Origin: Jiangella muralis
GTDB lineage: Bacteria; Actinomycetota; Actinomycetes; Jiangellales; Jiangellaceae
Direction: 5' to 3'
DNA: 64,000 bases
Assembly: GCF_001270745.1 (NCBI RefSeq)
Contig: NZ_LFXL01000037.1
Span: 1 to 64,000 of the forward strand
Part shown: piece after piece, positions 20,870-33,293 of the stretch
Layout: each line of letters begins with the position of its first letter
Numbering within the stretch: the stretch's first letter is position 1
Made by a program: the position numbers and the translations under genes
Notes under the pieces: model-generated
What the model was told of the DNA's origin: nothing
The model's database searches: none
Seen by the model: only the letters and a program-made list of their open reading frames with translations

Positions 20870-22177
20870 GTGAGAATCACCGTCGTCGCCCTGGGCAAGA
20901 TAGGGCTGCCGTTAGCCGTCCAGTTCGCCGCCAAGGGTCACGAGGTCATCGGCGTCGACGTCAACAGGACCGTCGTCGACCTCGTCAACAAGGGTGAAGA
21001 GCCGTTCCCCGGCGAGGATCAGCTGGCCGAGAAGCTGGCCGAGGTGGTGAGCGCCGGCCGGCTGAGGGCCACCACCGACTACGCCGACGCCGTCCCCGGC
21101 AGCGACGCCGTCGTCCTCGTGGTGCCGTTGTTCGTCGACGACACCACCGGCGAGCCCGACTTCGGGTGGATGGACTCCGCCACCCAGTCGCTGGCCGAGA
21201 ACCTGACGCCGGACACGCTCGTCTCCTACGAGACCACGCTGCCGGTCGGGACCACCCGCAACCGGTGGCGGCCACTGATCGAGAAGGTGTCCGGGCTCAC
21301 CGAGGGCACCGACTTCCACCTGGTGTTCTCGCCCGAGCGGGTGCTCACCGGGCGGGTCTTCGCCGACCTCCGCAAGTACCCGAAGCTGATCGGTGGGCTG
21401 ACCCCGGCCGGCGCCGAGCAGGCGCGCGCGTTCTACGAGGCCGTCCTCGACTTCGACGACCGCCCCGATCTTCCGCGCGGCAACGGCGTCTGGGACCTCG
21501 GCAGCGCCGAGGCGGCCGAGATGGCGAAGCTCGCCGAGACCACCTACCGCGACGTCAACATCGGCCTGGCCAACCAGTTCGGCCGGTTCGCCGCTGCCAA
21601 CGGCATCGACGTCTTCCAGGTCATCGAGGCGTCCAACTCGCAGCCGTACAGTCACATCCACCGGCCCGGCATCGCGGTCGGCGGCCACTGCATTCCCGTC
21701 TACCCGCGGCTGTACCTGTGGACCGACCCCGACGCCACCGTCGTCCGCGCCGCGCGTGAGGCCAACGTCGGCATGCCCGAGTACACCGTCGGCCTGGTCG
21801 AGGCCGCTGCCGGTGGCTCGCTGGACGGCCTGCGGGTCGTCGTGCTGGGCGCGGCGTACCGCGGCCGGGTGAAGGAGACGGCGTTCTCCGGCGTCTTCCC
21901 GACGGTGGCGGCGCTGCGCTCGCGGGGGGCCGAGGTGCTCGTGCACGACCCCATGTACACCGACGACGAACTGCGCGGGCTCGGCTTCGCGCCGTACCAC
22001 CTGGGCGAGCCGGCCGACGCCGTCGTCGTCCAGGCCGACCACCCCGAGTACGCCGAGGTCGGCGCCGCTGACGTCCCGGGCGCCAAGATCCTGGTCGACG
22101 GCCGCGACGTCACCGACGCCGCCCGCTGGGACGGCGTCACCCGCATCGTCGTGGGCCGGGCGTCGTCACCGGCATGA
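20870..22177 (+). CDS. Nucleotide-sugar dehydrogenase with an atypical active-site loop
   Basis: UDP-glucose/UDP-ManNAc dehydrogenase superfamily, 435 residues. It has ITVVALGKIGLPLAVQFA for NAD, VSYETTLPVGTT, FHLVFSPERVLTGR, AEMAKLAETTYRDVNIGLANQF and the cysteine loop AVGGHCIPVYP. The usual loop is GGHCIPVDP, so tyrosine replaces the aspartate two residues beyond the isoleucine-proline pair; the catalytic Cys is present. ALGKIGLP instead of GLGYVGLP is a second departure. GTG 20870 starts 110 bases from the divergent epimerase gene. A TAGCCTAT sequence at 20824-20831 could be a -10 element. The substrate may differ from that of the canonical dehydrogenase at 37732. Confidence 0.88.
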   Translation: MRITVVALGKIGLPLAVQFAAKGHEVIGVDVNRTVVDLVNKGEEPFPGEDQLAEKLAEVVSAGRLRATTDYADAVPGSDAVVLVVPLFVDDTTGEPDFGWMDSATQSLAENLTPDTLVSYETTLPVGTTRNRWRPLIEKVSGLTEGTDFHLVFSPERVLTGRVFADLRKYPKLIGGLTPAGAEQARAFYEAVLDFDDRPDLPRGNGVWDLGSAEAAEMAKLAETTYRDVNIGLANQFGRFAAANGIDVFQVIEASNSQPYSHIHRPGIAVGGHCIPVYPRLYLWTDPDATVVRAAREANVGMPEYTVGLVEAAAGGSLDGLRVVVLGAAYRGRVKETAFSGVFPTVAALRSRGAEVLVHDPMYTDDELRGLGFAPYHLGEPADAVVVQADHPEYAEVGAADVPGAKILVDGRDVTDAARWDGVTRIVVGRASSPA

Positions 22178-22358
22178 TCATCGTCCCGGCGCCGGCTGGA
22201 CGGGCCCGTGTGCGGCCGTCCGGCCGGCGCTCGGCGGGGCGGGGCCCGTTCGGCGGGGTTTCGGTCTGTTCGCCTGCGTGGGGTCCGGGTCCGTTTCGTC
22301 GGCGCGCGCTCTGTCAGTGCCCGCCCGTAGGGTGGGTCCCACCCGGTAGGGGCGGGTC

Positions 22359-25001
22359 ATGACTACCCCAGAATCGAGCACGTCGGCACCGCGCACGTCG
22401 GGGTCCGTCGGCGGCGACGGGCAGCCGGCCCGGGCGCACGTCGTCATGCTGGTGGCCAACGACGTCGTCACCGACAGCCGGGTCAAGAAGGAGGCGCAGG
22501 CCGTCGCCGACGCCGGGTACCGGGTCACGGTGCTGGGCGTTGCGGCCGACGGCCGGCGGTCGCTGGAGCTGCTCGGCGACGTGCTGGTGGTCCGGGTGCC
22601 GGTGGCGTTCCAGTTGCGCGATGAGCGCGACCGCAAGCGCCGCTCGCACCGCGACTGGCGCCCGCCGTACATCGGCTACCCGGCGAAGTCGGCCCAGTCG
22701 GCGCGCAAGCAGGTGCTCAAGGCGCGGCGCGTCGAGCTGACCGGCCGGTCCGGCGGCGGGCGCGGCGGGCGCGGTGGCGTCGGCGCGCGGCTGGCCGCGC
22801 TCCGGCTGACCGCCGCCGAGCGGGCCGCCTGGCTGCGCGCCGGCGTCGGCAACCGGGCCGACAAGCTGTTCCGGTTCGGCTGGCGGGCGTGGGACGGCGT
22901 CGCCGCGCGCACGCCGTGGCCGGCCCGCTGGCGGCTGGTGCACCCGCAGGCCTACGACTACGAACTGGCCTTCGGGCCGCTGCTCGACCAGCTCGCGCCC
23001 GACGCCGTCCACGCCCACGACATGCACGTCATCGGGGTCGGGGTGCGCGCGGCGGAGCGGGCCCGCGCCGCCGGCCGCCGGGTCGCCGTCGTCTACGACG
23101 CGCACGAGTACGTCCCCGGGCTGTCCCGTTACGGCCCCCGCACGCCGCGGTTCATCGCCGCCTGGGCGCACCACGAGCGCGAGTACATCGGCCGCGCCGA
23201 CCGCGTCGTCACCGTCAGCCCGGCCATCGCCCGCACGCTGCGGCAGCGGTACCGCCTGGACCGCGAGCCCACCGTCGTCATCAACTCGCCGAGCATGACC
23301 GAGCTGACCGGCGACGACGTCCCCGGCCTGCGCGCCCGCATCGGTCTCGCGGCGGACGTGCCGCTGCTGGTCTACAGCGGCGGCGTCACCAAGGCGCGCG
23401 GCGTCGAGACCGCCGTCGAGGCGCTGCCGTCGCTGCCCGGCGTCCACCTGGCGGTCGTGTCCGTCCCGCACATCGAGATCGCGCCGGTGCATCAGCTGCG
23501 CGCGCTGGCCGGACGCCTCGGCGTCGCCGACCGCGTCCACTTCCTCGACCCCGTGCGGCCGCACGAGGTGGTCGCGTTCCTGTCGTCGGCCGACGTCGGG
23601 CTGATCCCGATCCTGCGCTACCCCAGCCACGAGATGGCGCTGCCGAACAAGGTGTTCGAGTACGCGTTCGCCGGGCTGCCGGTGGTCACCAGCGACATGC
23701 CGAGCCTGACGGAGTTCATGCGGCAGTCCGGTATCGGCGAGGTGTACCGCGTCGGCGACGCCGCCGACCTCGCGGCCAAGGTGCACGCCGTCCTCGCCGA
23801 CCCGGCGCCGTACCGCGCCCGGCTGGAGCGGCCGGAGTTCCGCCAGGAGGTGTCCTGGGAGGGGCAGGCGCAGCACCTGCGCGAGCTGTACACCGACCTG
23901 ATCGGAACGGCGCCGACGGCGTCCGCGCCGGCCACCGCGTCGGCGCCGGTCGCGGGGGACCGCGTGCCGCACCTGCTGATCGGGCCGTCCAACAGCGCCG
24001 GCCAGGGCTGGCGCTGGGCGCGCGCCGTCGAGCGGTACGCGCCGCCGGCGACGGCCGAGAACCTCATGACCGAGTCCGGCTCGTTCGCGTTCCGCGCCGA
24101 CCACGTCGTGGCGGCCGAGCGGTTCCAGCACGACGCCGCCTGGGTGGTCGAGTTCGCCGACCACGTCCTGCGCACCGCCACCCACGTGCTGTTCGAGGCG
24201 GCCCGCCCGGTGCTCGGCCAGGCCCGTGGCCAGCTCTTCGTCGAGGACCTGCCGACGCTGCGCGCGGCCGGCATCGCGGCCGGGGTGATCCTGCACGGGT
24301 CCGAGATCCGCGATCCGCGCCGGCACCGCGAGCTGTTCCGCCACTCGCCGTTCGCCGACCCCGACGACCCGTTGACGCAACGGCTGCAGCAGGCCACCCG
24401 GGTCGTGCTCGGGCACCTGCGCGACTTCGACGGCCCGCGCTTCGTCACCACGCCCGACCTCGTCGACTTCCTCGACGGCGCCCAGTGGCTGCCGGTCGTG
24501 GTCGACGTCGACGACCTCGCCACCGATCGCCCGGTGCTGGAGCGGCCGGTACCGGTGGTGCTGCACGCACCGTCGCGCGGCGCGCTCAAGGGCTCGGCCG
24601 CCGCCGACCCCGTCCTGCGCGACCTGCACGACCGCGGCCTGATCGAGTACCGGCGCATCGAGGGCGTCGCGCACGCCGAGCTGATGGCCCAGCTGCGCAC
24701 CGCCGACGTCGTCGTCGACCAGCTGGCGCTCGGGTCGTACGGCGTGCTGGCCTGCGAGGCGATGGCGGCCGGACGGGTCACCGTCGGGCACGTCGCCGAG
24801 CACGTCCGGGCCGCGATCCCGGCCGAGCTGCCCATCGTCGAGGCCACGCCGGACGACCTCGGCGCCGTCGTCGAGCGGCTGGTCGCCGAGCGCGAGGCCG
24901 CGGGCAAGACGGCCACGGCCGGGCCCGACTACGTCCGCCGGTTCCATGACGGACGGGCATCGGCGCGGGTCCTGGCGCCGTTCCTGGGCGTGGCGGACTG
25001 A
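22359..25001 (+). CDS. Bifunctional glycosyltransferase: GT4 module followed by AGQG module
   Basis: An 880-residue fusion with domain order opposite to the 10881 protein. Residues about 25-510 are a GT4 module (VVMLVANDVVTDSRVKKEAQ, HAHDMHVIGVG, YDAHEYVPGLSRYG, VYSGGVTKARGVETAVEALP, LPNKVFEYAFAGLPVVTSDM). Residues about 530-880 are an AGQG module (HLLIGPSNSAGQGWRWARA, LHGSEIRDPRRH, FVTTPDLVDFLDGA, APSRGALKGSAAAD, YRRIEGVAHAELMA, SYGVLACEAMAAGRV). A Gly/Arg-rich insert lies near residue 130. ATG 22359 follows GGTAGGGGCGGGTC. The 115 bases after it hold a small hairpin and lead into the amidase gene. Confidence 0.85.
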   Translation: MTTPESSTSAPRTSGSVGGDGQPARAHVVMLVANDVVTDSRVKKEAQAVADAGYRVTVLGVAADGRRSLELLGDVLVVRVPVAFQLRDERDRKRRSHRDWRPPYIGYPAKSAQSARKQVLKARRVELTGRSGGGRGGRGGVGARLAALRLTAAERAAWLRAGVGNRADKLFRFGWRAWDGVAARTPWPARWRLVHPQAYDYELAFGPLLDQLAPDAVHAHDMHVIGVGVRAAERARAAGRRVAVVYDAHEYVPGLSRYGPRTPRFIAAWAHHEREYIGRADRVVTVSPAIARTLRQRYRLDREPTVVINSPSMTELTGDDVPGLRARIGLAADVPLLVYSGGVTKARGVETAVEALPSLPGVHLAVVSVPHIEIAPVHQLRALAGRLGVADRVHFLDPVRPHEVVAFLSSADVGLIPILRYPSHEMALPNKVFEYAFAGLPVVTSDMPSLTEFMRQSGIGEVYRVGDAADLAAKVHAVLADPAPYRARLERPEFRQEVSWEGQAQHLRELYTDLIGTAPTASAPATASAPVAGDRVPHLLIGPSNSAGQGWRWARAVERYAPPATAENLMTESGSFAFRADHVVAAERFQHDAAWVVEFADHVLRTATHVLFEAARPVLGQARGQLFVEDLPTLRAAGIAAGVILHGSEIRDPRRHRELFRHSPFADPDDPLTQRLQQATRVVLGHLRDFDGPRFVTTPDLVDFLDGAQWLPVVVDVDDLATDRPVLERPVPVVLHAPSRGALKGSAAADPVLRDLHDRGLIEYRRIEGVAHAELMAQLRTADVVVDQLALGSYGVLACEAMAAGRVTVGHVAEHVRAAIPAELPIVEATPDDLGAVVERLVAEREAAGKTATAGPDYVRRFHDGRASARVLAPFLGVAD

Positions 25002-25004
25002 TCG

Positions 25005-25022
25005 GAATCGTCCGAACGATTC
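25005..25022 (+). terminator. Small hairpin just after the double GT gene
   Basis: GAATCGT (25005-25011) and ACGATTC (25016-25022) form a seven-base perfect stem with a four-base loop, three bases after the stop codon. There is no U-rich run, so an intrinsic terminator of the classical kind is doubtful. It could be a weak terminator or an operator near the promoter of the amidase gene at 25117. Confidence 0.3.
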
Positions 25023-25116
25023 ACCCCAATCGGTTGCGTGACACGTGTGACTGGTGCGACTGTTGATGCGTCAGTAGTCATCTGAAGCATCACAGCTGGT
25101 CTGCGGGGGACGAGTC

Positions 25117-27126
25117 GTGAAGGTCATCAACGCGGGTCTGGCGGGCGCGCTCGTCGCGTTCGCGATGGCGCCGGCCGTGCCCTCGTGGGGCGCGACGCCG
25201 GTGCCGCCGACGTCGTCGCCGGGCGTTGCGACGCCGGATGCCGCGCTGGATGCCGCGCCGGAGAGCGCCGGGACGCCATCCGCGTCCGGCACCCCGGCGG
25301 CGCCGACGGCCGCGGGCGCGCCGGTGGCCGACGACCTGCAGACGATCGGCCTCCCGGTCGCCGCCGGCGGGTTCGGGCGGCTGCCCAGCCTGCCGCCGGC
25401 GCCCGGCGGCACGCCGCGCGAGTTCAGCGACCTCACCGCGCGGATTCCGCTCGTCTACTCCGAGGAGTACACCGTCCGGCCGTTCCGGCTGGCCGCCGTC
25501 ACCTGGACCGGCGCCGCGCCGGTGCGGGCGTGGGCGCGGGTGCGCTCCGACGGCGAGTGGTCGCAGTGGTACGAGCTGCCCGGCGGCGACGACCACCAGC
25601 CCGACCCCGGCACCGCCGAGGCGGCGTCCGCCCGCAACGGGACCGACCCGCTGCTGGTGCCGGCGTCCGACGGCATCCAGGTGCGCGTCGACGGCGCGCA
25701 GTCCGGCGCCCGGCGCCCGTCCGACCTGCGGCTGGACCTCGTCGAACCGGGGACCGCGCCGGCCGCGCGGGTCGAGGCGCCGGAGCTGGCCGTCAACGGC
25801 GGCCCGACGATCTACAGCCGGGCGCAGTGGGGCGCAGACGAGTCGATGCGGGCCGATCCGCCCAGCTACGGCGAGGCGCGCGGCGCGTTCGTGCACCACA
25901 CCGTCAGCGCCAACTCCTACAGCTCGGCCGATGTGCCGGCGCTGATCAGGTCGATCTACGTCTACCACGTGCGGTCCCGCGGCTGGAACGACATCGGCTA
26001 CAACTTCGTCATCGACCGCTTCGGCCGCATCTGGGAGGGCCGCTACGGCGGCGTCGACCGCGCGGTCATCGGCGCGCACACCCAGGGCTACAACGACGAC
26101 GCGTTCGCCGCGTCCGCGCTGGGCAGCTACGAGAACACCGCGCCGTCCAGCGTCATGCTCGGCGCGTACGCGCGGCTGTTCGGGTGGAAGTTCCGCATCC
26201 ACGGCATCCGCCCGCTGCGCCAGGTCAACTACGACGGCGAGGCGTGGCCGGCCATCGCCGGGCACCGCGACGCCGCCGCCACGGCCTGCCCCGGCGACGC
26301 CCTGTACGCGCGGCTGAGCACCATCCGGTCCGGCACGCTGCGGCAGATGGGCATCGGCGGCGACTCCACCAGCGGCCGGGACGTCAACGGCGGCGGCCGG
26401 TCCGACATCATGGCCCGGCAGCGCTCGAACGGCTCGTTCTGGCTCTGGCCGGGCGGCACCATCGCCGGGTTCGGCAACCGCCTCTCGTTCGGCACGGGCT
26501 GGTCGTCGATGATCTCCGTCGCTCTGCCCGGCGACTGGGACGGCGACGGCCACGACGACGTCATCGCCCGCAGCGCGTCCGGCGGGCTGTGGCTCTACTC
26601 CGGCCGGTCCGGCCAGGGGTTCTCGGCGCAGCGGCGCATCGGCACCGGCTGGGCCGGCTTCACCTACGTCGTCGCGCCGGGCGACTGGGACGGCGACGGC
26701 CGGGTCGACCTCATCGCGCGCCGCCGCGACGGCGTGCTGATGCTGTACCCGGGCAACGGCCGCGGCGGCTTCAGCACGGCGCGGGCCATCGGCACCGGCT
26801 GGGGCTCGTTCACGGCCATCGTCGGGGCCGGCGACTGGAACAGCGACGGCGCCGTCGACCTCATCGCCCGGCTGCCCAACGGCGCCCTGCTGCTCTACCC
26901 GGGCACCGGCAAGGGCGGCTTCGGCAAGGCCCGCACCATCGGCACCGGCTGGGCCGGGTTCACCGGCATCGCCGCGGCGGGCGACGTCAACGACGACTAC
27001 GTGCTCGACCTCGTCGTGTGGACGGCCGGCGGCTCCATGCTCCTCTACCCCGGCAGCGGTACGGGTGGCTTCCTGCCGAGCCGGAGCATCGGCTCCGGCT
27101 GGAACGCCTTCGACCTGCGCAGCTGA
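25117..27126 (+). CDS. Secreted N-acetylmuramoyl-L-alanine amidase (PGRP type) with FG-GAP repeats
   Basis: A 669-residue exported protein. Residues 1-28 are a signal peptide (VINAGLAGALVAFAMAPA). A low-complexity Pro/Ala region follows. The amidase_2/PGRP domain is at about 225-415, with FVHHTVS, GWNDIGYNFVID and AGHRDAAATACPGD supplying the zinc ligands and catalytic tyrosine. Five repeats of about 48 residues (GDWDGDGHDDVIARxxxGxLWLYxG) run from about 420 to the end, an FG-GAP/VCBS beta-propeller with Asp-rich calcium loops. It would cut between muramic acid and the stem peptide. GTG 25117 is preceded by GGGGGA. The SpoIID-like gene follows after 15 bases and carries related repeats. Confidence 0.92.
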   Translation: MKVINAGLAGALVAFAMAPAVPSWGATPVPPTSSPGVATPDAALDAAPESAGTPSASGTPAAPTAAGAPVADDLQTIGLPVAAGGFGRLPSLPPAPGGTPREFSDLTARIPLVYSEEYTVRPFRLAAVTWTGAAPVRAWARVRSDGEWSQWYELPGGDDHQPDPGTAEAASARNGTDPLLVPASDGIQVRVDGAQSGARRPSDLRLDLVEPGTAPAARVEAPELAVNGGPTIYSRAQWGADESMRADPPSYGEARGAFVHHTVSANSYSSADVPALIRSIYVYHVRSRGWNDIGYNFVIDRFGRIWEGRYGGVDRAVIGAHTQGYNDDAFAASALGSYENTAPSSVMLGAYARLFGWKFRIHGIRPLRQVNYDGEAWPAIAGHRDAAATACPGDALYARLSTIRSGTLRQMGIGGDSTSGRDVNGGGRSDIMARQRSNGSFWLWPGGTIAGFGNRLSFGTGWSSMISVALPGDWDGDGHDDVIARSASGGLWLYSGRSGQGFSAQRRIGTGWAGFTYVVAPGDWDGDGRVDLIARRRDGVLMLYPGNGRGGFSTARAIGTGWGSFTAIVGAGDWNSDGAVDLIARLPNGALLLYPGTGKGGFGKARTIGTGWAGFTGIAAAGDVNDDYVLDLVVWTAGGSMLLYPGSGTGGFLPSRSIGSGWNAFDLRS

Positions 27127-27141
27127 GCGACGGGCACACGG

Positions 27142-29265
27142 GTGGGTGGCGTCGCGCTGGCGCTGACGGCGCTGCTGATCGCTTCGGGGACGACCCCGGC
27201 GGACCCGGCGCCGGCCCCGTCGACCCGGGTGCCGGCCGACCTGCTGGCGGAGTGGGCGGCCGAGGCCGCCCCCGAACCGCCCGCCGCGGTGCCGGACGAC
27301 CTGCCGGACGGCCTCACCGGCGAGCTGGACCTCCCCGTCGACCCCGCCGTCGAGACCGTGCGCTGGCCGTCGTCGGGCGAGCTGGTGCTGGAGGGCCGCG
27401 GCTACGGGCACGGCCGCGGGATGTCGCAGTGGGGCGCGTACGGGGCGGCGGCGAGCGGCCTCGGCTACGGGCGGATCCTCGCGCACTACTACCGCGGCAC
27501 CTCGCTGGAACTGCGCGACGACATCCGGCTGCGGGTCCGCATCACGGCCGACGACGACGGCGAGACCCGGGTGGCCCCGGCCCGCGGGTTGACGGCGACC
27601 GCCGGTGACGCGGCGCTGACGCTGCCGTCGTCGCTGGCCGGGAGCCGCGTGACGGCCTGGCGGGTGGTCCGCGACGGCGGCCGGCTGGTGCTGCAGGGGT
27701 ACGCGGGCAGCTGGCGGACGACGGCGATCGGCGGGGCCACCGCGCACGCCGCGCCGATCGCGTTCACCACGCCGGCCGGCGCCGTCCGCCTCGTCCTCGG
27801 CTCCACCCACCGCGAGTACCGCGGCGCCGTCGAGGCGGTCGCCACCGGCTCCGGCGTCGGCACCCGCGTGGCCACGTCGCTGGAGTCGTACCTGCGCAGC
27901 GTCGTGCCGGCGGAGATGCCGGCCAGCTGGCCCGCCGCGGCGCTGCAGGCGCAGGCCGTCGCGGCCCGCACGTACGCCCGCTGGCAGCGGGCCGAGGAAC
28001 CCGGCTCCTGGTACGACACCTGCGACAGCACCCGCTGCCAGGTGTTCAACGGCGCCGCCGACTACACCGCGGGCGGCGACCTCATCCGCCGCTACGACCA
28101 CCCGGCCAGCGACGCCGCCGTCGGCGCGACCGCCGAGCGGATCCTGCTGTACGACGGCGAGCCCGCGTTCACCCAGTTCACGTCCGCGAACGGCGGGTGG
28201 ACGATGCGCGGGTCGCGGCCGTACCTGCGCGCGTTCGCCGACGAGTACGACGGGGTGGTGTCCGGCTCGCCGCACCGCTGGCGCACGACCCTGACCGCGC
28301 GCGCCGTCGCGGCCGCCTTCCCGCGCGTCGGCCGCCCGGTCACCCTGCGGGTCGACGCCCGGAACGGCCACGGCGCGTGGGGCGGGCGGACCACGTCGGT
28401 GGTCGTGACGGGCACGGAGGGGTCGGTCGAGGTGGGCGGCGAGGCGTTCCGGTCGGCGCTCGGGCTGCGCAGCGACTGGTGGCGGGTCAGCGGCGTCGCG
28501 GGGGCGGGGCACGACCTCACCGGCGACCGCCGCGCCGACCTCGTCGCGCGGCGTTCGTCCGACGGGTCGCTGTGGCTGTATCCGGGCAACGGCGCGGGCG
28601 GTTTCGGCCCGACCCGGTCGCTAGGCGCCGGCTGGCACGGCATGTCGTCGATCCTGGTCACGCCCGACTGGGACGGCGACGGGCGGGCCGATCTGGTGGC
28701 GCGGTCGCGGTCCGGCGACCTGTGGCTGTACTCGGGCGACGGTGCGGGCGGGGCCTCCGGACGGCCGATCGGGCAGGGGTGGGCGGGCATGAACGGGCTC
28801 GCGACGCCCGGCGACTGGGACGGCGACGCGCGGACGGACCTGCTGGCGCGGCGGTCACGGTCCGGCGACCTGTGGCTGTACGCGGGAGCGGGCCGGGCCG
28901 GCTTCGGGGTGGCGCGGCCGATCGGCACCGGGTGGAGCGCCTGGAACCTGATCACCGGCAGCCCGGACTTCGACGGCGACGGCCACGCCGACCTCGTGGC
29001 GCGGCGTCGCGGCGACGGCACCCTCTGGCTCTTCCCCGGCGACGGGCGCGGCGGGTTCGGCACCGCGAGCCGGGTGGGGCACGGCTGGGCCGGCATGAAC
29101 GCCCTCGTCGCCCCCGGCGACTGGGACGGCGACGGGCGGGCCGACCTCATCGCCCGCAGCGCCGCCGACGGCGCCCTCTGGTTCTACGCCGGCAACGGCC
29201 GCGGCGACATCGCCGCCGTCCGGCGCATCGGCACCGGCTGGACCGTGGTCGACGCGCTCGGCTGA
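27142..29265 (+). CDS. SpoIID/LytB-domain protein with FG-GAP repeats
   Basis: A 707-residue exported protein. It has a hydrophobic start (VALALTALLIASGT). A SpoIID domain spans about residues 75-430 (ELVLEGRGYGHGRGMSQWGA, VTSLESYLRSVVPAEMPASW, AVAARTYARWQR). Five FG-GAP repeats follow from about 454 to the end (GDWDGDGRADLVARSRSGDLWLYSG type). SpoIID of Bacillus is a lytic transglycosylase acting on denuded glycan; LytB modifies amidase activity. The 15-base spacing from the amidase gene suggests co-expression, and the shared repeat type suggests both bind the same wall ligand or multimerise. GTG 27142 is the likely start. Confidence 0.9.
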   Translation: MGGVALALTALLIASGTTPADPAPAPSTRVPADLLAEWAAEAAPEPPAAVPDDLPDGLTGELDLPVDPAVETVRWPSSGELVLEGRGYGHGRGMSQWGAYGAAASGLGYGRILAHYYRGTSLELRDDIRLRVRITADDDGETRVAPARGLTATAGDAALTLPSSLAGSRVTAWRVVRDGGRLVLQGYAGSWRTTAIGGATAHAAPIAFTTPAGAVRLVLGSTHREYRGAVEAVATGSGVGTRVATSLESYLRSVVPAEMPASWPAAALQAQAVAARTYARWQRAEEPGSWYDTCDSTRCQVFNGAADYTAGGDLIRRYDHPASDAAVGATAERILLYDGEPAFTQFTSANGGWTMRGSRPYLRAFADEYDGVVSGSPHRWRTTLTARAVAAAFPRVGRPVTLRVDARNGHGAWGGRTTSVVVTGTEGSVEVGGEAFRSALGLRSDWWRVSGVAGAGHDLTGDRRADLVARRSSDGSLWLYPGNGAGGFGPTRSLGAGWHGMSSILVTPDWDGDGRADLVARSRSGDLWLYSGDGAGGASGRPIGQGWAGMNGLATPGDWDGDARTDLLARRSRSGDLWLYAGAGRAGFGVARPIGTGWSAWNLITGSPDFDGDGHADLVARRRGDGTLWLFPGDGRGGFGTASRVGHGWAGMNALVAPGDWDGDGRADLIARSAADGALWFYAGNGRGDIAAVRRIGTGWTVVDALG

Positions 29266-29267
29266 GC

Positions 29268-29663
29268 CTAGGGTGAGTCTCCCAAGCCGATCACCGTGGC
29301 CTTCCGGCCGACCAGCAGCCGCCGCGCCACGACGAAGGTGACGGGTATCGCGATGGCCGCCGCGACGAGCGGAGCCGCCCGTTCGTCCATTCCGGCGTAC
29401 TCGATCAGCACGACGACGCCGGTCGTCGTCACGACGAAATTGGCCACGGTGGACAGCGGGAAGAGGAGGAACCGCCGCAGCGTCGGCCTGACTCTGTAGG
29501 TGTAGAGCGTATTGAGGAAGAACGATCCGATGGTGGACAGCACGAAGGCGACGACGTGCCCTGGCAGATACCCGATCCACTCACGCAGCAGGAGATAGCA
29601 CGCGTAATAGGTCGCCGTATTGATACCGCCGACGACGACGAATCTCAGCGCCTGACCGATCAT
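29268..29663 (-). CDS. GtrA/GtcA-family membrane flippase-like protein
   Basis: A 131-residue protein with four hydrophobic segments and the GtrA-family start ALRFVVVGGINTATYY. GtrA/GtcA proteins are thought to turn polyprenol-phosphate-linked single sugars across the membrane. ATG 29663 overlaps the stop of the polyprenol-phosphate GT (ATGA), a common pairing. With the YfhO-like protein on the other side of the divergent region, all three parts of a CsbB-GtcA-YfhO-type glycan decoration machine are present. Base composition is lower in GC than the surrounding genes. Confidence 0.9.
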   Translation of the reverse strand: MIGQALRFVVVGGINTATYYACYLLLREWIGYLPGHVVAFVLSTIGSFFLNTLYTYRVRPTLRRFLLFPLSTVANFVVTTTGVVVLIEYAGMDERAAPLVAAAIAIPVTFVVARRLLVGRKATVIGLGDSP

Positions 29664-30598
29664 CGCGGTAGACGCGGTGGGTCGATGTTCGATTCCTTGA
29701 CGATGAAGTGGGGCCGGCGCTTGGTCTCCAGGAAGATCCGGCCGACGTATTCCCCGACGACGCCGAGCAGGATCATCTGGGCTCCGCCCAGGCCGATGAT
29801 CGCCGCGATCGACGTCACGTACCCCGGGGTGTCCACCCCGACGGTGAGCGCGTTGACGATCTGCCAGACGAGGTAGCCGACCGATGCGATCACCAGCAGG
29901 AGGCCGGCATGGATCGCTGAGCGCAGGGGCTTGCTGTTGAACGAGAGGATGCCGTCGAGGCCGTAGTTCACCAGGCTCACGAGCGACCACGACGACCTGC
30001 CGTGTTCGCGTAGTCCGCTCTGGAACGGTACGACGGCCGCCGGGAACCCGATCCAGGCGAACAGACCCTTCGAGAACCGGTTGTGCTCGGTCATGCTGAG
30101 CAGGGCGTCGAGTGCGCGCCGGCTGAGCAGCCTGAAGTCGCCTTCGCCGTCGACCAGGCGGACGTCGACGACGGAGTTGACCGCCCGGAAGTAGAGGCGG
30201 CTGAGACTGCGCCGAAGCGGCGAGTCGTTGGTACGGTCCCGCCGCGCCACCACCTGGTCGGCGCCGGCCAGGTGCTCGTCGAGCAGCCTGGGGACCAGTT
30301 CGGGCGGGTGCTGCAGGTCGGCGTCCATGATCACGACGGCGTCGCCACCAGCCGCTCGCAGGCCGGCCAGCATGGCCGCCTCCTTGCCGAAGTTCCGGCT
30401 CAACGCGATGTACTTCACGCGGGTGTCGGATTCCGCGAGCTTGCGGAGGACCGTGGGTGTGTCGTCGGTGCTGCCGTCGTCGACGAAGACGAATTCCATG
30501 TCGGTCTGAACGGTCTCCGACATGGCGACCAGCCGCGCGTAGAGAATCGGCAGCCCGTCGGCCTCGCCGTAACACGGCACGACGATCGAGGTGATCAC
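29660..30598 (-). CDS. Polyprenol-phosphate glycosyltransferase, GT2 (CsbB/GtrB-like)
   Basis: The 312-residue protein begins ITSIVVPCYGEADGLPILY and has FVFVDDGSTDDTP, SRNFGKEAAMLAGL, VVIMDADLQHPPE (donor/metal site) and DGEGDFRLLSRRALDAL. Two membrane helices (about residues 225-290) and the EYVGRIFLETKRRPHFIV ending are typical of GtrB/CsbB. It would make a polyprenyl-phosphate monosaccharide from a nucleotide sugar on the inner face of the membrane. The start codon ATG (GTG two codons upstream is less likely) begins directly at the conserved motif. It is divergent from the YfhO-like gene, with 115 bases between. Confidence 0.92.
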   Translation of the reverse strand: MITSIVVPCYGEADGLPILYARLVAMSETVQTDMEFVFVDDGSTDDTPTVLRKLAESDTRVKYIALSRNFGKEAAMLAGLRAAGGDAVVIMDADLQHPPELVPRLLDEHLAGADQVVARRDRTNDSPLRRSLSRLYFRAVNSVVDVRLVDGEGDFRLLSRRALDALLSMTEHNRFSKGLFAWIGFPAAVVPFQSGLREHGRSSWSLVSLVNYGLDGILSFNSKPLRSAIHAGLLLVIASVGYLVWQIVNALTVGVDTPGYVTSIAAIIGLGGAQMILLGVVGEYVGRIFLETKRRPHFIVKESNIDPPRLPR

Positions 30599-30637
30599 CC
30601 GAATTCCCCTTACCGTGGATTGTATAGCACCACAGCA

Positions 30638-30666
30638 TTGTCAACATGTATTGAATGCCGTGATAC
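30638..30666 (+). promoter_or_regulatory. Predicted sigma-70-type promoter for the YfhO-like gene
   Basis: TTGTCA at 30638-30643 and TGATAC at 30661-30666 are separated by 17 bases in a distinctly AT-richer divergent intergenic region, 48 bases before the GTG start at 30714. The -35 box has one mismatch and the -10 box two mismatches to consensus. On the opposite strand the same region gives TTGACA and TATACA, but only about 12 bases apart, so that pair is not accepted as a promoter for the leftward genes. Confidence 0.5.
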
Positions 30667-30713
30667 GGTTTGCGCTATTCTGAGTTCGGAGCCGATGGAT
30701 TGGTGCAAGCACT

Positions 30714-33293
30714 GTGTATACGCACGAAGCGCCTGCGAGGTTGCATCGCGTGCTGCTGTCCGCCGTCGCGGCCGCGGTGCTGGCCGCTGCCGCCTTCGTG
30801 GCGAGCGGGGCGATCCGCGGGACGTTCCCGTTCGGCGACGTGTCGCGCAACACCAACGACCTCGGCCAGCAGCTGATCCCCGTCCACGGGCGGCTGCGCG
30901 ACGTGCTGACCGGCGACGCGGCCGGCGACCTCGTCTTCAACTGGTCCAGCGGGTTCGGCGTCCCGTTCCTCGGCGACTACCTGTCCTACCTCGGCAGCAC
31001 GCTGTCCTGGCTGGTGCTGCTGTTCCCGCGCGACGGCATGGACCTCGCGCTGTTCGTCATCGCGGTCGTCGCGCTGGCGCTGGCGGCGGCCGCCATGACG
31101 GCCTACCTGCGGTTGCTGCGCCCGCGCGGGCCGGCCTGGCTCTCCGTCGTCGCAGGGGCCTCCTACGCGCTGTGCGGGTGGGCGATCGACGACGGCGCGT
31201 ACCTGACCGTCTGGCTGTACGGGCTGGTGGCGTTCCCGGTGCTGTGCCTGCTGTGCGAGTGGATCCTGCGGCGGCGATCGTCGTGGCTGCCGGTCTGCGT
31301 GACGCCGTTCGTGGTGGCGCTGCTGTGGACGTCGCAGTTCTACACCGTCTACATGGCCACCATCGGCGCGGCGATCGTCGTGCTGGTGCGGGTGCTGTCG
31401 TGGGAGTCGTCCGTGTCGTGGCGGACGCGGCTGGCGGGGCTGCTGCGCTGCGCGGTTGCCGTCGTCGCGGGCATGGGCCTCGCGGCGCCGCTGCTGGTGC
31501 CGATGTTCTGGGCGGCGCGGTACGCACGGCCCAGCCCGGAGACCGAGTTCCACGCCATGGACTGGCGCGACTTCCTGTCGCGACTGCTGGCCGGCACCGA
31601 GGGGGTCGGATCCAGTCCCGGCCTCGCGGTCGGGACGGTGCTGCTGCTGCTGGCCGTGAGCCTGCCGTTCAACCGCGCGGTGCCGTGGCGCGAGCGGCTC
31701 GTGTGGACGGGAGCGGTGGGGCTGACGGTGCTGAGCATGCAGGTCGCGCTGACGCACGCCGTGTGGCATGGATTCGACACCCCCAACGGCAGCCCGTTCC
31801 GGCAGGCGTTCGTGGTGGCGGGGCTGTTGGTGATCGCCGGCTGGATCTCCGGTTCGGCCGGGCTGCGCGGCGTCGCGCCGGTGCTGGCGCCGCTGGTGCT
31901 GGTCGGCGGGCTCTACCTCGCCGTGCGGTCCGGCCCGTTCGTCACGCCGACCACTCGGGTCGTCGTCCCGGTGGTCGCGGCCGTCGCGCTGGTCGCCTGG
32001 CTGGCCTGGCGGTTCACGGAGCGCGGGCGGCCCTGGGTCGCCGCGGTGGCCGCGGGAGTCGTCGGCGCCGCCGTCATCGTCGAGGCGACGGCGGGGGCGG
32101 TGGCGATCGACGAGGCGCGGACGCGGATCCTGAGCACACACCCGGTCTGGGGCGACGAGAACGACCAGGTCAGGGCGTTGGTCCAGGGTGCCGACCGGTG
32201 GCCGGAGGCGCGCGTGTCGCCGGGCGCGTACGTCACGCAGAACGACCCCATGCTGCTGGGCGGGCAGGGGTCGCAGTACTACTCGAGCACCATTCCCGAC
32301 GACGTCTCCGTGGCGCTGGCCGGGCTGGGCTTCGGGTACAGCGCGTACGTGCGGGCCAACGTCGACCCCGCGAACCCGGTCGTCGACGCCGTGTTCGCCG
32401 TCGGCGCCCGGGTGGTCACTGACGACGCCGGGACGCTCCGGCTAGCGGAGAACCCCGACGTGGCGCCGCTGGTCACCGTCCGCCCGGCCGAGCCCTGGAC
32501 GTCGCCCGACCCGGCGCCGTTCGGGCACCAGGAGACCGCGCTCGGCGCCGACGTCTACACCGTCCCGCGGGTCGAGCTGGTCCCGGACCCGGCGCTGACG
32601 GTGATCGGGCGGCGCCGCGACTCGCTGCTGTCCCCCGCGGTTGTGGGGGAGCCGGCCGAGCTGCGGGTGACGGCGTCGTGCCCGGCAGGCACCGAGGTGT
32701 ACATGGCGGCGCCGGCCTTCGTGGGCGACGTGCTCGCCGCCGACACCGGCTGGCGTGCGGTGCTGGGGCAGGGCACCCGCGCCCCGGGCGTGTACAACGG
32801 CGCGCCACTGCTGCGGGTCGGCACGGCGGGGGCCGACGGCGCCGTCGAAGTGAAGCTCCGGGTCTACGGCCCGGCGCGGCTGCCGGCCAGCCCGCTCGGC
32901 TGCCTCGACCGTACGGCGCTGTCTGACGCGGTGGCCGGGTTGCGAGCCGGCGCGCCCACGTCCATCGACGTGACCGGCCACGGCGTCGCGGCCACGCTGC
33001 CCCCGTCCTCGACGCCGTCGACCGTTGTCCTCGGCGTGATCCGGTCGCCCGGCTGGCGCTGCTCGGCCGGCGACGGACCGGCGACGACCCCGACCACGGC
33101 CGGTGGGCTGATCGCCCTGCCGGTCCCGGCCGGGGTGACCGACGTGTCCTGCGAGTACCGGCCGCGCGGCCTGCGCATGGGCCTCGCCGTCGGCGCTGCC
33201 GCACTGGCGGTCGTCGCGGCGCTGGGCGTGGTCGGTCTCGTGCAGCGCCGCCGACGGGACGCGTGGGTGGTAGAGCAGGAGAAGTCCTCGTGA
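30714..33293 (+). CDS. YfhO-like integral membrane glycosyltransferase
   Basis: An 859-residue membrane protein with about 12-13 hydrophobic segments over the first 450 residues plus one at the C-terminus, and a large extracytoplasmic region between (about 460-810). The N-terminal stretch FVASGAIRGTFPFGDVSRNTNDLGQQ, FNWSSGFGVPFLGDYLSYLGS and YALCGWAIDDGAYLTVWLYG match YfhO proteins. In Firmicutes, YfhO transfers sugar from a polyprenyl phosphate made by CsbB to lipoteichoic acid. The gene start at GTG 30714 has only a weak ribosome site. The divergent neighbours encode the CsbB-like GT and the GtrA-like flippase. Confidence 0.85.
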   Translation: MYTHEAPARLHRVLLSAVAAAVLAAAAFVASGAIRGTFPFGDVSRNTNDLGQQLIPVHGRLRDVLTGDAAGDLVFNWSSGFGVPFLGDYLSYLGSTLSWLVLLFPRDGMDLALFVIAVVALALAAAAMTAYLRLLRPRGPAWLSVVAGASYALCGWAIDDGAYLTVWLYGLVAFPVLCLLCEWILRRRSSWLPVCVTPFVVALLWTSQFYTVYMATIGAAIVVLVRVLSWESSVSWRTRLAGLLRCAVAVVAGMGLAAPLLVPMFWAARYARPSPETEFHAMDWRDFLSRLLAGTEGVGSSPGLAVGTVLLLLAVSLPFNRAVPWRERLVWTGAVGLTVLSMQVALTHAVWHGFDTPNGSPFRQAFVVAGLLVIAGWISGSAGLRGVAPVLAPLVLVGGLYLAVRSGPFVTPTTRVVVPVVAAVALVAWLAWRFTERGRPWVAAVAAGVVGAAVIVEATAGAVAIDEARTRILSTHPVWGDENDQVRALVQGADRWPEARVSPGAYVTQNDPMLLGGQGSQYYSSTIPDDVSVALAGLGFGYSAYVRANVDPANPVVDAVFAVGARVVTDDAGTLRLAENPDVAPLVTVRPAEPWTSPDPAPFGHQETALGADVYTVPRVELVPDPALTVIGRRRDSLLSPAVVGEPAELRVTASCPAGTEVYMAAPAFVGDVLAADTGWRAVLGQGTRAPGVYNGAPLLRVGTAGADGAVEVKLRVYGPARLPASPLGCLDRTALSDAVAGLRAGAPTSIDVTGHGVAATLPPSSTPSTVVLGVIRSPGWRCSAGDGPATTPTTAGGLIALPVPAGVTDVSCEYRPRGLRMGLAVGAAALAVVAALGVVGLVQRRRRDAWVVEQEKSS

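Follow-up and report, generated by a model that had tools for sequence, protein, structure and literature searches.

Multi-component transmembrane glycosylation systems were defined in PMC8035078, whose Table 1 consists of Firmicutes only. One of them, CsbB-GtcA-YfhO of Bacillus subtilis, Listeria and Staphylococcus, unites a flippase, a synthase and a GT-C transferase. Related sets are PgfS-PgfM1-PgfM2-PgfE of Streptococcus mutans, which modifies surface proteins (PMC5856776), and the gtrABC serotype-conversion operons of Salmonella and Shigella, in which GtrA and GtrB are joined by a membrane transferase. The Salmonella gtr operons are shuffled by recombination that is not limited by gene boundaries, and the same paper cites exchangeable GtrA/GtrB in Shigella (PMC3688519). 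The YfhO family of Pfam has some actinobacterial members (PMC5836110), and the gsf cluster of the actinobacterium Actinoplanes missouriensis, a GtrA glycosylation cluster with a sporangium phenotype, has its own transmembrane transferase, which is stated not to be GT-C; YfhO is not mentioned in the main text of that study (PMC13390465). In the literature on YfhO together with actinobacteria or Streptomyces, judged mostly by titles, we found no title on an actinobacterial YfhO system. Here, we analyzed a 64,000-nucleotide stretch of the genome of Jiangella muralis (termed the window; genome G000), in which the same three families are encoded by gtrB, gtrA and yfhO, and compared it with 11 other Jiangella genomes, 12 in total. 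We show that in this lineage gtrB-gtrA replaced a different synthase gene opposite yfhO. The four features concerned are:

29268 to 29663, minus strand: gtrA, encoding a GtrA-type small membrane protein, a predicted polyprenyl-phosphate sugar flippase (PF04138, E 6.7e-21)
29660 to 30598, minus strand: gtrB, encoding a GT-A-type GT2 polyprenyl-phosphate sugar synthase of the GtrB/CsbB/PgfS type (PF00535, E 1.8e-34)
30599 to 30713, no strand: divergent intergenic region, 115 bp between the annotated start codons of gtrB and yfhO
30714 to 33293, plus strand: yfhO, encoding a membrane glycosyltransferase of 859 aa with a predicted GT-C fold (PF09586, E 2.4e-60), GTG start as called

A preliminary description of the window had presented these genes as a complete CsbB-GtcA-YfhO-like set, with coupled synthase and flippase genes and a single divergent promoter region. 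Its open reading frames (ORFs) and coordinates, as well as the Pfam families GtrA, GT2 and YfhO, were reproduced in our analysis, and so was the ATGA overlap of the gtrB stop with the gtrA start at 29660-29663. The divergent layout with its 115 bp is likewise real, but a scan of 30560-30800 found no sigma-70-like promoter, and the "divergent promoter region" is therefore to be understood as a layout rather than as a demonstrated promoter. PF04138 spans 110 of the 130 residues of GtrA that were scanned, and simple hydropathy analysis reveals three clear hydrophobic segments, which fits the three to four helices of the GtrA type. GtrB shows two C-terminal hydrophobic segments, as expected for a GT-A synthase with C-terminal membrane helices. 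It matches the structure of GtrB sll0501 (PDB 5EKP) with an E-value of 5.8e-71 across residues 3-301, ArnC-type enzymes ranking next, and its best NCBIfam model is PgfS (E 5.6e-104).

We then surveyed the trio across Jiangella. Contrary to the picture of a conserved set, gtrB-gtrA is found in only four of the 12 genomes, namely at the same slot in the window and in J. asiatica (G006), and at other loci in G008 and G002, while yfhO is present in ten. Six genomes (G004, G010, G009, J. aurantiaca (G007), J. ureilytica (G011) and J. anatolica (G005)) carry an alternative GT2 synthase of about 322 residues at the slot, divergent from yfhO. Its copies are 78-96% identical to that of G004. Among NCBIfam models it comes closest to AglJ, which describes dolichyl-phosphate sugar synthases of haloarchaea, with a score below the cut-off (E 1.2e-59). 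The two synthases exclude each other: orthologues of both the AglJ-like synthase and gtrB-gtrA occur together in none of the 12 genomes; all of them have weaker GT2 matches, which are short and reach 42% at most. G001 and G003, which lack yfhO, have neither, and in each of the ten yfhO-bearing genomes one or the other synthase adjoins a yfhO. If relatedness is ignored, the chance that four gtrB-gtrA and six alternative genomes would fall without overlap among these ten is 1 in 210. G008 moreover retains a resident yfhO without an adjacent synthase, and the slot is empty in G002. Another GtrA, encoded elsewhere, is conserved in all 12 genomes and could act with the AglJ-like synthase. Thus, the preliminary description had the right parts list and the wrong picture of their conservation, and the exchange of a synthase module at a resident YfhO is the more interesting result.

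The slot is delimited by two genes:

27142 to 29265, plus strand: SpoIID/FG-GAP protein gene (PF08486, PF13517), the stop codon of which is the left edge of the replaced segment
33464 to 34600, minus strand: epoxide hydrolase-like gene (PF06441), part of the conserved right flank outside the variable island

The epoxide hydrolase gene adjoins yfhO in G004, G010, G009, G008, J. aurantiaca, J. ureilytica and J. asiatica, and directly adjoins the SpoIID gene in G002. At the slot, J. aurantiaca is without the SpoIID neighbour, and J. anatolica yielded no match to the epoxide hydrolase. Colinearity of the window with the sister genomes G004 and G010 (92-93%) extends to position 29265, which is 2 bp from the stop codon of gtrA, and with J. 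ureilytica it ends at the same position. It resumes at 30636 (G004) or 30710 (G010), so that the break covers the synthase gene; the G004 alignment, starting at about 30636, takes in some nine bases of the start of the replaced gene. In a tree of the rpoB region the window groups with (G010, G004) with a support of 95, J. asiatica and G003 being most distant, and a tree of the gene labelled ACS recovers the same sister pair. In J. asiatica, a remnant of the alternative gene (43-46 codons, approximately 50% identity, one TAG stop) still lies between gtrB and yfhO, which identifies the AglJ-like gene as the one replaced there; for the window the same follows from its presence in the sister genomes. 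Together with the comparison of cassettes described below, these results are strong comparative evidence that gtrB-gtrA replaced the AglJ-like synthase in the window lineage by recombination, in an exchange within the genus. The acquisition of the synthase-flippase pair, previously suggested as transfer, is thus supported, by recombination.

In G008 and G002, gtrB-gtrA is part of a yfhO'-gtrB-gtrA block of 3.8 kb that is 87.9% identical between the two genomes and sits at two different sites. Outside the trio, only one 144-base match was detected within 19 kb of each, and because the block is shared and its surroundings are not, the cassette appears to be mobile. The yfhO' of the cassette and the window yfhO, which belongs to the resident clade, share 57% identity. 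The argument originally given for transfer, low GC content, fared less well. The dip is real, gtrA having 63.6% and gtrB 66.9% GC (0.86 and 0.90 at third codon positions, GC3) compared to 68-78% in eight neighbouring genes. However, the replaced resident synthase of G004 is nearly as low (68.4%, with a GC3 of 0.89) and the window's Wzm gene is at 65%, which means that the dip says little, and we rejected GC content as weak evidence of transfer. As to the J. asiatica locus (L015:6370-8430), the SpoIID gene is mostly lost there, with a single alignable piece of 0.23 kb, and to the left of gtrA there are ORFs with an unusually low GC3 of about 0.6.

The exchange did not leave yfhO itself untouched:

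30714 to 31922, plus strand: 5' part of yfhO, which shares its history with J. asiatica; the break lies at codon 326 or 403, depending on the reference set

Up to codon 326, 60 of 90 informative sites group the window with J. asiatica, compared to 52 of 166 beyond it (MaxChi, 0/5000 permutations); with four reference genomes the break is placed at codon 403, again with 0/5000. When J. aurantiaca or J. ureilytica takes the place of the window, no 5' excess is seen (34/100 and 31/96 sites), and the overall fraction of J. asiatica-grouping sites in the window amounts to 0.10 for ACS and 0.06 for the rpoB region. In sets of 2000 permutations, the observed value was reached 0 times for the window in yfhO, compared to 95 for J. 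aurantiaca and 1520 for J. ureilytica; the corresponding numbers for the window and J. aurantiaca are 109 and 1060 in ACS, and 1533 and 36 in the rpoB region. Moreover, the tree of the first part joins the window to J. asiatica with a support of 99/100, and both alternative topologies fail the approximately unbiased (AU) test (<0.001). Thus, yfhO is a mosaic, firmly so for the shared history of its 5' part with J. asiatica and weakly for its 3' part.

These data also bear on the idea that the trio arrived whole and displaced a resident synthase-yfhO pair, the divergence of yfhO then reflecting an unsampled donor, a scenario that would be compatible with a switch of the sugar. It would account for the synonymous divergence (dS) between the yfhO genes of the window and G004, which is elevated over the full length of the gene and at 0.29 exceeds the values for seven genes of the flanks (0.11-0.22). 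We nevertheless consider it somewhat unlikely, given that the window yfhO falls into the resident clade, at 57% identity to the yfhO' of the cassette, and that the two parts of the gene yield different relatives. A comparison with G009 (L025) places yfhO in a wider context. Among the cluster genes in 20870-33293, dS is 0.49 for UGDH, 0.57 for GT4 (part only), 0.66 for the amidase, 0.56 for SpoIID (part only) and 0.54 for yfhO, compared to 0.24, 0.12 and 0.27 for three genes of the right flank, which is composed of the epoxide hydrolase, a phosphoesterase and then ACS (a name read from the sequence). Since the polysaccharide cluster has diverged far more between species than the right flank, yfhO forms the edge of a hypervariable island.

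One residue of YfhO tracks the partner synthase:

31335 to 31337, plus strand: codon of Q208, the residue tracking the partner synthase

It is the variable position of a motif that, with small variations, reads W-T-S-x-F-Y-T-x-Y-M-A-T. Histidine is found in all ten YfhO proteins encoded beside the alternative synthase (six from Jiangella, four from Kribbella), glutamine in the window and J. asiatica, and asparagine in the 11 other gtrB-linked proteins. Asparagine is also found in all 20 rows, linked or not, from Streptomyces-like genomes (an inferred label for one large-genome genus; 20 YfhO regions from 15 genomes). Of 281 columns that are invariant in the ten alternative-linked proteins, 208 is the only one that differs in both the window and J. 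asiatica. Columns 33, 208 and 277 have disjoint residues in the ten alternative-linked and the 13 gtrB-linked proteins (a comparison made without a shuffle control), 208 being the one among them that does not vary within the alternative-linked group. Column 572, the sole column in a stricter 4-against-10 test, was dropped, since random splits equalled it in 27/500 cases.

Possibly the machine and its sugar stayed the same, gtrB-gtrA being a non-orthologous displacement of the AglJ-like synthase and the mosaicism of yfhO the result of hitch-hiking. That just one of the 281 columns differs in both switched proteins would fit this explanation, as would the fact that both synthases belong to GT2 and that the best matches of each include models of polyprenyl-phosphate sugar synthases. 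However, the 5' part of YfhO moved with the module and a residue in a conserved motif tracks the partner, which speaks against this explanation, and we regard it as unlikely.

On balance, we think that this wall-polysaccharide locus probably documents a switch of partner modules, in which the sugar-supply module was exchanged, YfhO was largely kept and the added sugar probably changed. In the ancestral slot, an AglJ-like polyprenyl-phosphate sugar synthase would have faced the resident yfhO, until recombination put gtrB-gtrA, the module that elsewhere in the genus resides in the mobile cassette, in its place. In the cytoplasm, GtrB would load a sugar onto polyprenyl phosphate; the lipid-linked sugar would then be moved to the outer face by GtrA and passed by YfhO to an extracellular polymer. 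This acceptor is most likely the wall glycopolymer made by the surrounding cluster, which would be ABC-exported and LCP-ligated. The 5' and putatively donor-side part of yfhO would have come along with the module, leaving the ectodomain more nearly resident, and as a likely effect the same acceptor would carry another decorating sugar. More tentatively, this could amount to serotype-like switching: the resident GT-C enzyme would keep its acceptor-binding ectodomain, and trading one of two distantly related synthase types for the other, along with the donor-side portion of the enzyme and its residue 208, would change the surface sugar in a single recombination event. Compared to CsbB-GtcA-YfhO, the window has the genes for flippase, synthase and GT-C transferase in one place and its module where relatives carry another synthase, the AglJ-like partner of six relatives being absent from it. 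In gtrABC operons, the gtrC families vary most and gtrA/gtrB are alike, whereas in the window the transferase is largely retained and it is the synthase that was swapped for one of another GT2 subfamily. Surface-sugar switching, which is known from enteric O-antigens, may thus occur in soil actinomycetes as well.

Several observations weigh against this account. Both synthases could make the same donor, in which case the sugar would not have changed. Between the gtrB of the window and the three remaining copies, dS amounts to 0.27-0.34; the module is therefore no recent arrival from outside the genus, and the dS points to exchange within it. The replacements in the window and in J. asiatica may be one single event, and the pattern at residue 208 may reflect only two evolutionary events, N to H and then H to Q. 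The resident, unlinked YfhO of G008 has H208 even though this genome has only gtrB-gtrA, at another locus, which breaks a strict rule. The low control values of MaxChi (95, 109 and 36 of 2000) reveal that the test is not silent elsewhere, with none of them near 0/2000. For the last part of yfhO, the grouping of the window with J. asiatica fails the AU test (0.014) and passes the Shimodaira-Hasegawa test (0.117), a weak rejection, and a grouping of J. asiatica with J. aurantiaca fits as well as that of the window with (G004, G010), so that the closest relatives of this part are unsure. Finally, 11 of the 20 Streptomyces-like loci, two of them cut by contig ends, are without a GtrB-level neighbour in the stretch read.

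YfhO is predicted to have 12-13 hydrophobic segments and an ectodomain of about 345 residues ahead of the last helix, as judged from hydropathy. B. subtilis YfhO, which has about 13 helices, the last of them preceded by a large loop (PMC5836110), is alike, a comparison that was made via the Pfam model only. Searching the PDB with the sequence returned no match up to an E-value of 1, and we therefore turned to a comparison of folds. An AlphaFold2 model based on an alignment of 35 rows (predicted local distance difference test score, pLDDT, 89.5; predicted template modelling score, pTM, 0.90) matched AftD and ArnT in Foldseek (E 4.9e-9 to 2.6e-4), with oligosaccharyltransferase (OST) also among the matches. 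VIA-align retrieved OST, AftD, AglB/PglB, DPY19 and ArnT with Z-scores of 17.8 to 13.6. The model thus supports YfhO as a GT-C-fold transferase, its number of helices lying within the range of 8-13. In ArnT and OST, acidic residues of the first loop are catalytic. Two parts of YfhO are of note:

30858 to 30860, plus strand: codon of D49, an aspartate of the first extracellular loop and candidate for the catalytic residue
32544 to 32927, plus strand: segment of the ectodomain (residues 611-738) that resembles carbohydrate-binding modules and is a candidate for acceptor binding

D49 is the sole acidic residue that is invariant in all 35 rows, and it aligns with an aspartate of Priestia megaterium YfhO at a whole-protein identity of 17%. 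A strict DXD motif is absent around it, and confidence in the modelled loop is low (pLDDT below 50 for residues 47-51). The GT-C model and the invariant aspartate support a complete transmembrane glycosylation set, and the three-component logic proposed earlier is likewise supported. Residues 611-738 matched CBM86 and CBM61 with a middling VIA Z-score of about 6, a level that unrelated folds also reach. The 2018 paper on YfhO, in what it says of the family, reports no conserved DXD and describes biochemical proof of catalysis as lacking (PMC5836110). A single YfhO lineage opposite two types of synthase, with a partner-tracking residue and an invariant aspartate, offers a test case for donor reading, and the genus a natural experiment on the donor-reading part of a GT-C enzyme.

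Around the trio, the window encodes an LCP ligase, wecB, rmlA, rmlB, several glycosyltransferases and a Wzm/Wzt-like ABC transporter, the best models of which are teichoic acid/galactan exporters (below the cut-offs). An NDP-sugar dehydrogenase has UDP-ManNAc dehydrogenases as next-best models, also below the cut-off. Based on these families, we read the surroundings as a cluster for an ABC-exported, peptidoglycan-ligated glycopolymer, in agreement with the wall-polymer context described before. The acceptor may be a lipoteichoic-like polymer; the nearest NCBIfam families, those of Streptococcus Pgf, belong to a surface-protein-modifying system. In analogy to S. mutans Pgf, the trio could instead O-glycosylate exported proteins, such as the neighbouring FG-GAP amidase or the SpoIID-like protein, both of which are repeat proteins that look exported. 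The best NCBIfam matches would be in line with this, GtrB resembling PgfS and YfhO PgfM2/PgfM1 (E 3.2e-18/3.5e-16), all of them below the cut-offs (347.7/500 bits for PgfS, 58.4/1400 for PgfM1 and 65.3/1500 for PgfM2). However, the surrounding genes resemble a cluster for glycopolymer synthesis and export, the YfhO ectodomain resembles carbohydrate-binding modules, and G001, G002 and G003 have the amidase gene in the window-equivalent region, from which yfhO is missing. A protein acceptor is thus quite improbable. The Pgf system also includes an epimerase, PgfE; none was detected among the window neighbours scanned by Pfam.

Finally, we looked beyond Jiangella. In a draw of 393 genomes of the class, 41 had a YfhO match, 33 of them above the cut-off. 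In the Streptomyces-like loci a GtrB is found near YfhO in nine of 20 cases and all three genes in seven, and on a Streptomyces plasmid the three lie side by side. A complete gtrB-gtrA-yfhO set is also present on a Priestia megaterium plasmid (L113, 43.6 kb), near genes annotated as encoding an AbiH family protein and a restriction endonuclease. These associations, together with the synthase next to a yfhO in all ten yfhO-bearing Jiangella genomes, make it hardly credible that the three genes are chance neighbours without a joint function, an explanation that could otherwise appeal to the lack of conservation of the trio across Jiangella. Pairing of YfhO with the alternative synthase recurs in Kribbella, in four of four loci from three species; the synthase gene overlaps yfhO by 4 bases in one of them and lies approximately 1.5-1.75 kb away in the others. 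At E 1e-60, the alternative synthase has 11 further relatives among the 393 genomes. Ten of these 11 genomes are without a YfhO match and the remaining one (G360) has a weak C-terminal match only; the association of this synthase with YfhO is therefore not universal. A phage origin was considered and rejected: YfhO gave one weak partial match among 50,697 phage records, in which GtrB was not searched.

Three further observations concern individual loci. In Kribbella sandramycini (L019:9974-15056), two tandem yfhO genes follow an AglJ-like synthase gene. G001, which has no yfhO, carries an ORF of 383 residues between the SpoIID and epoxide hydrolase genes (L109:9989-11140), for which no NCBIfam match was obtained at E 1e-10. 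In the window, the adjacent genes for the amidase and the SpoIID-like protein (25117-29265) each encode C-terminal FG-GAP repeats, and their reciprocal matches in related loci are about 44-52% identical.

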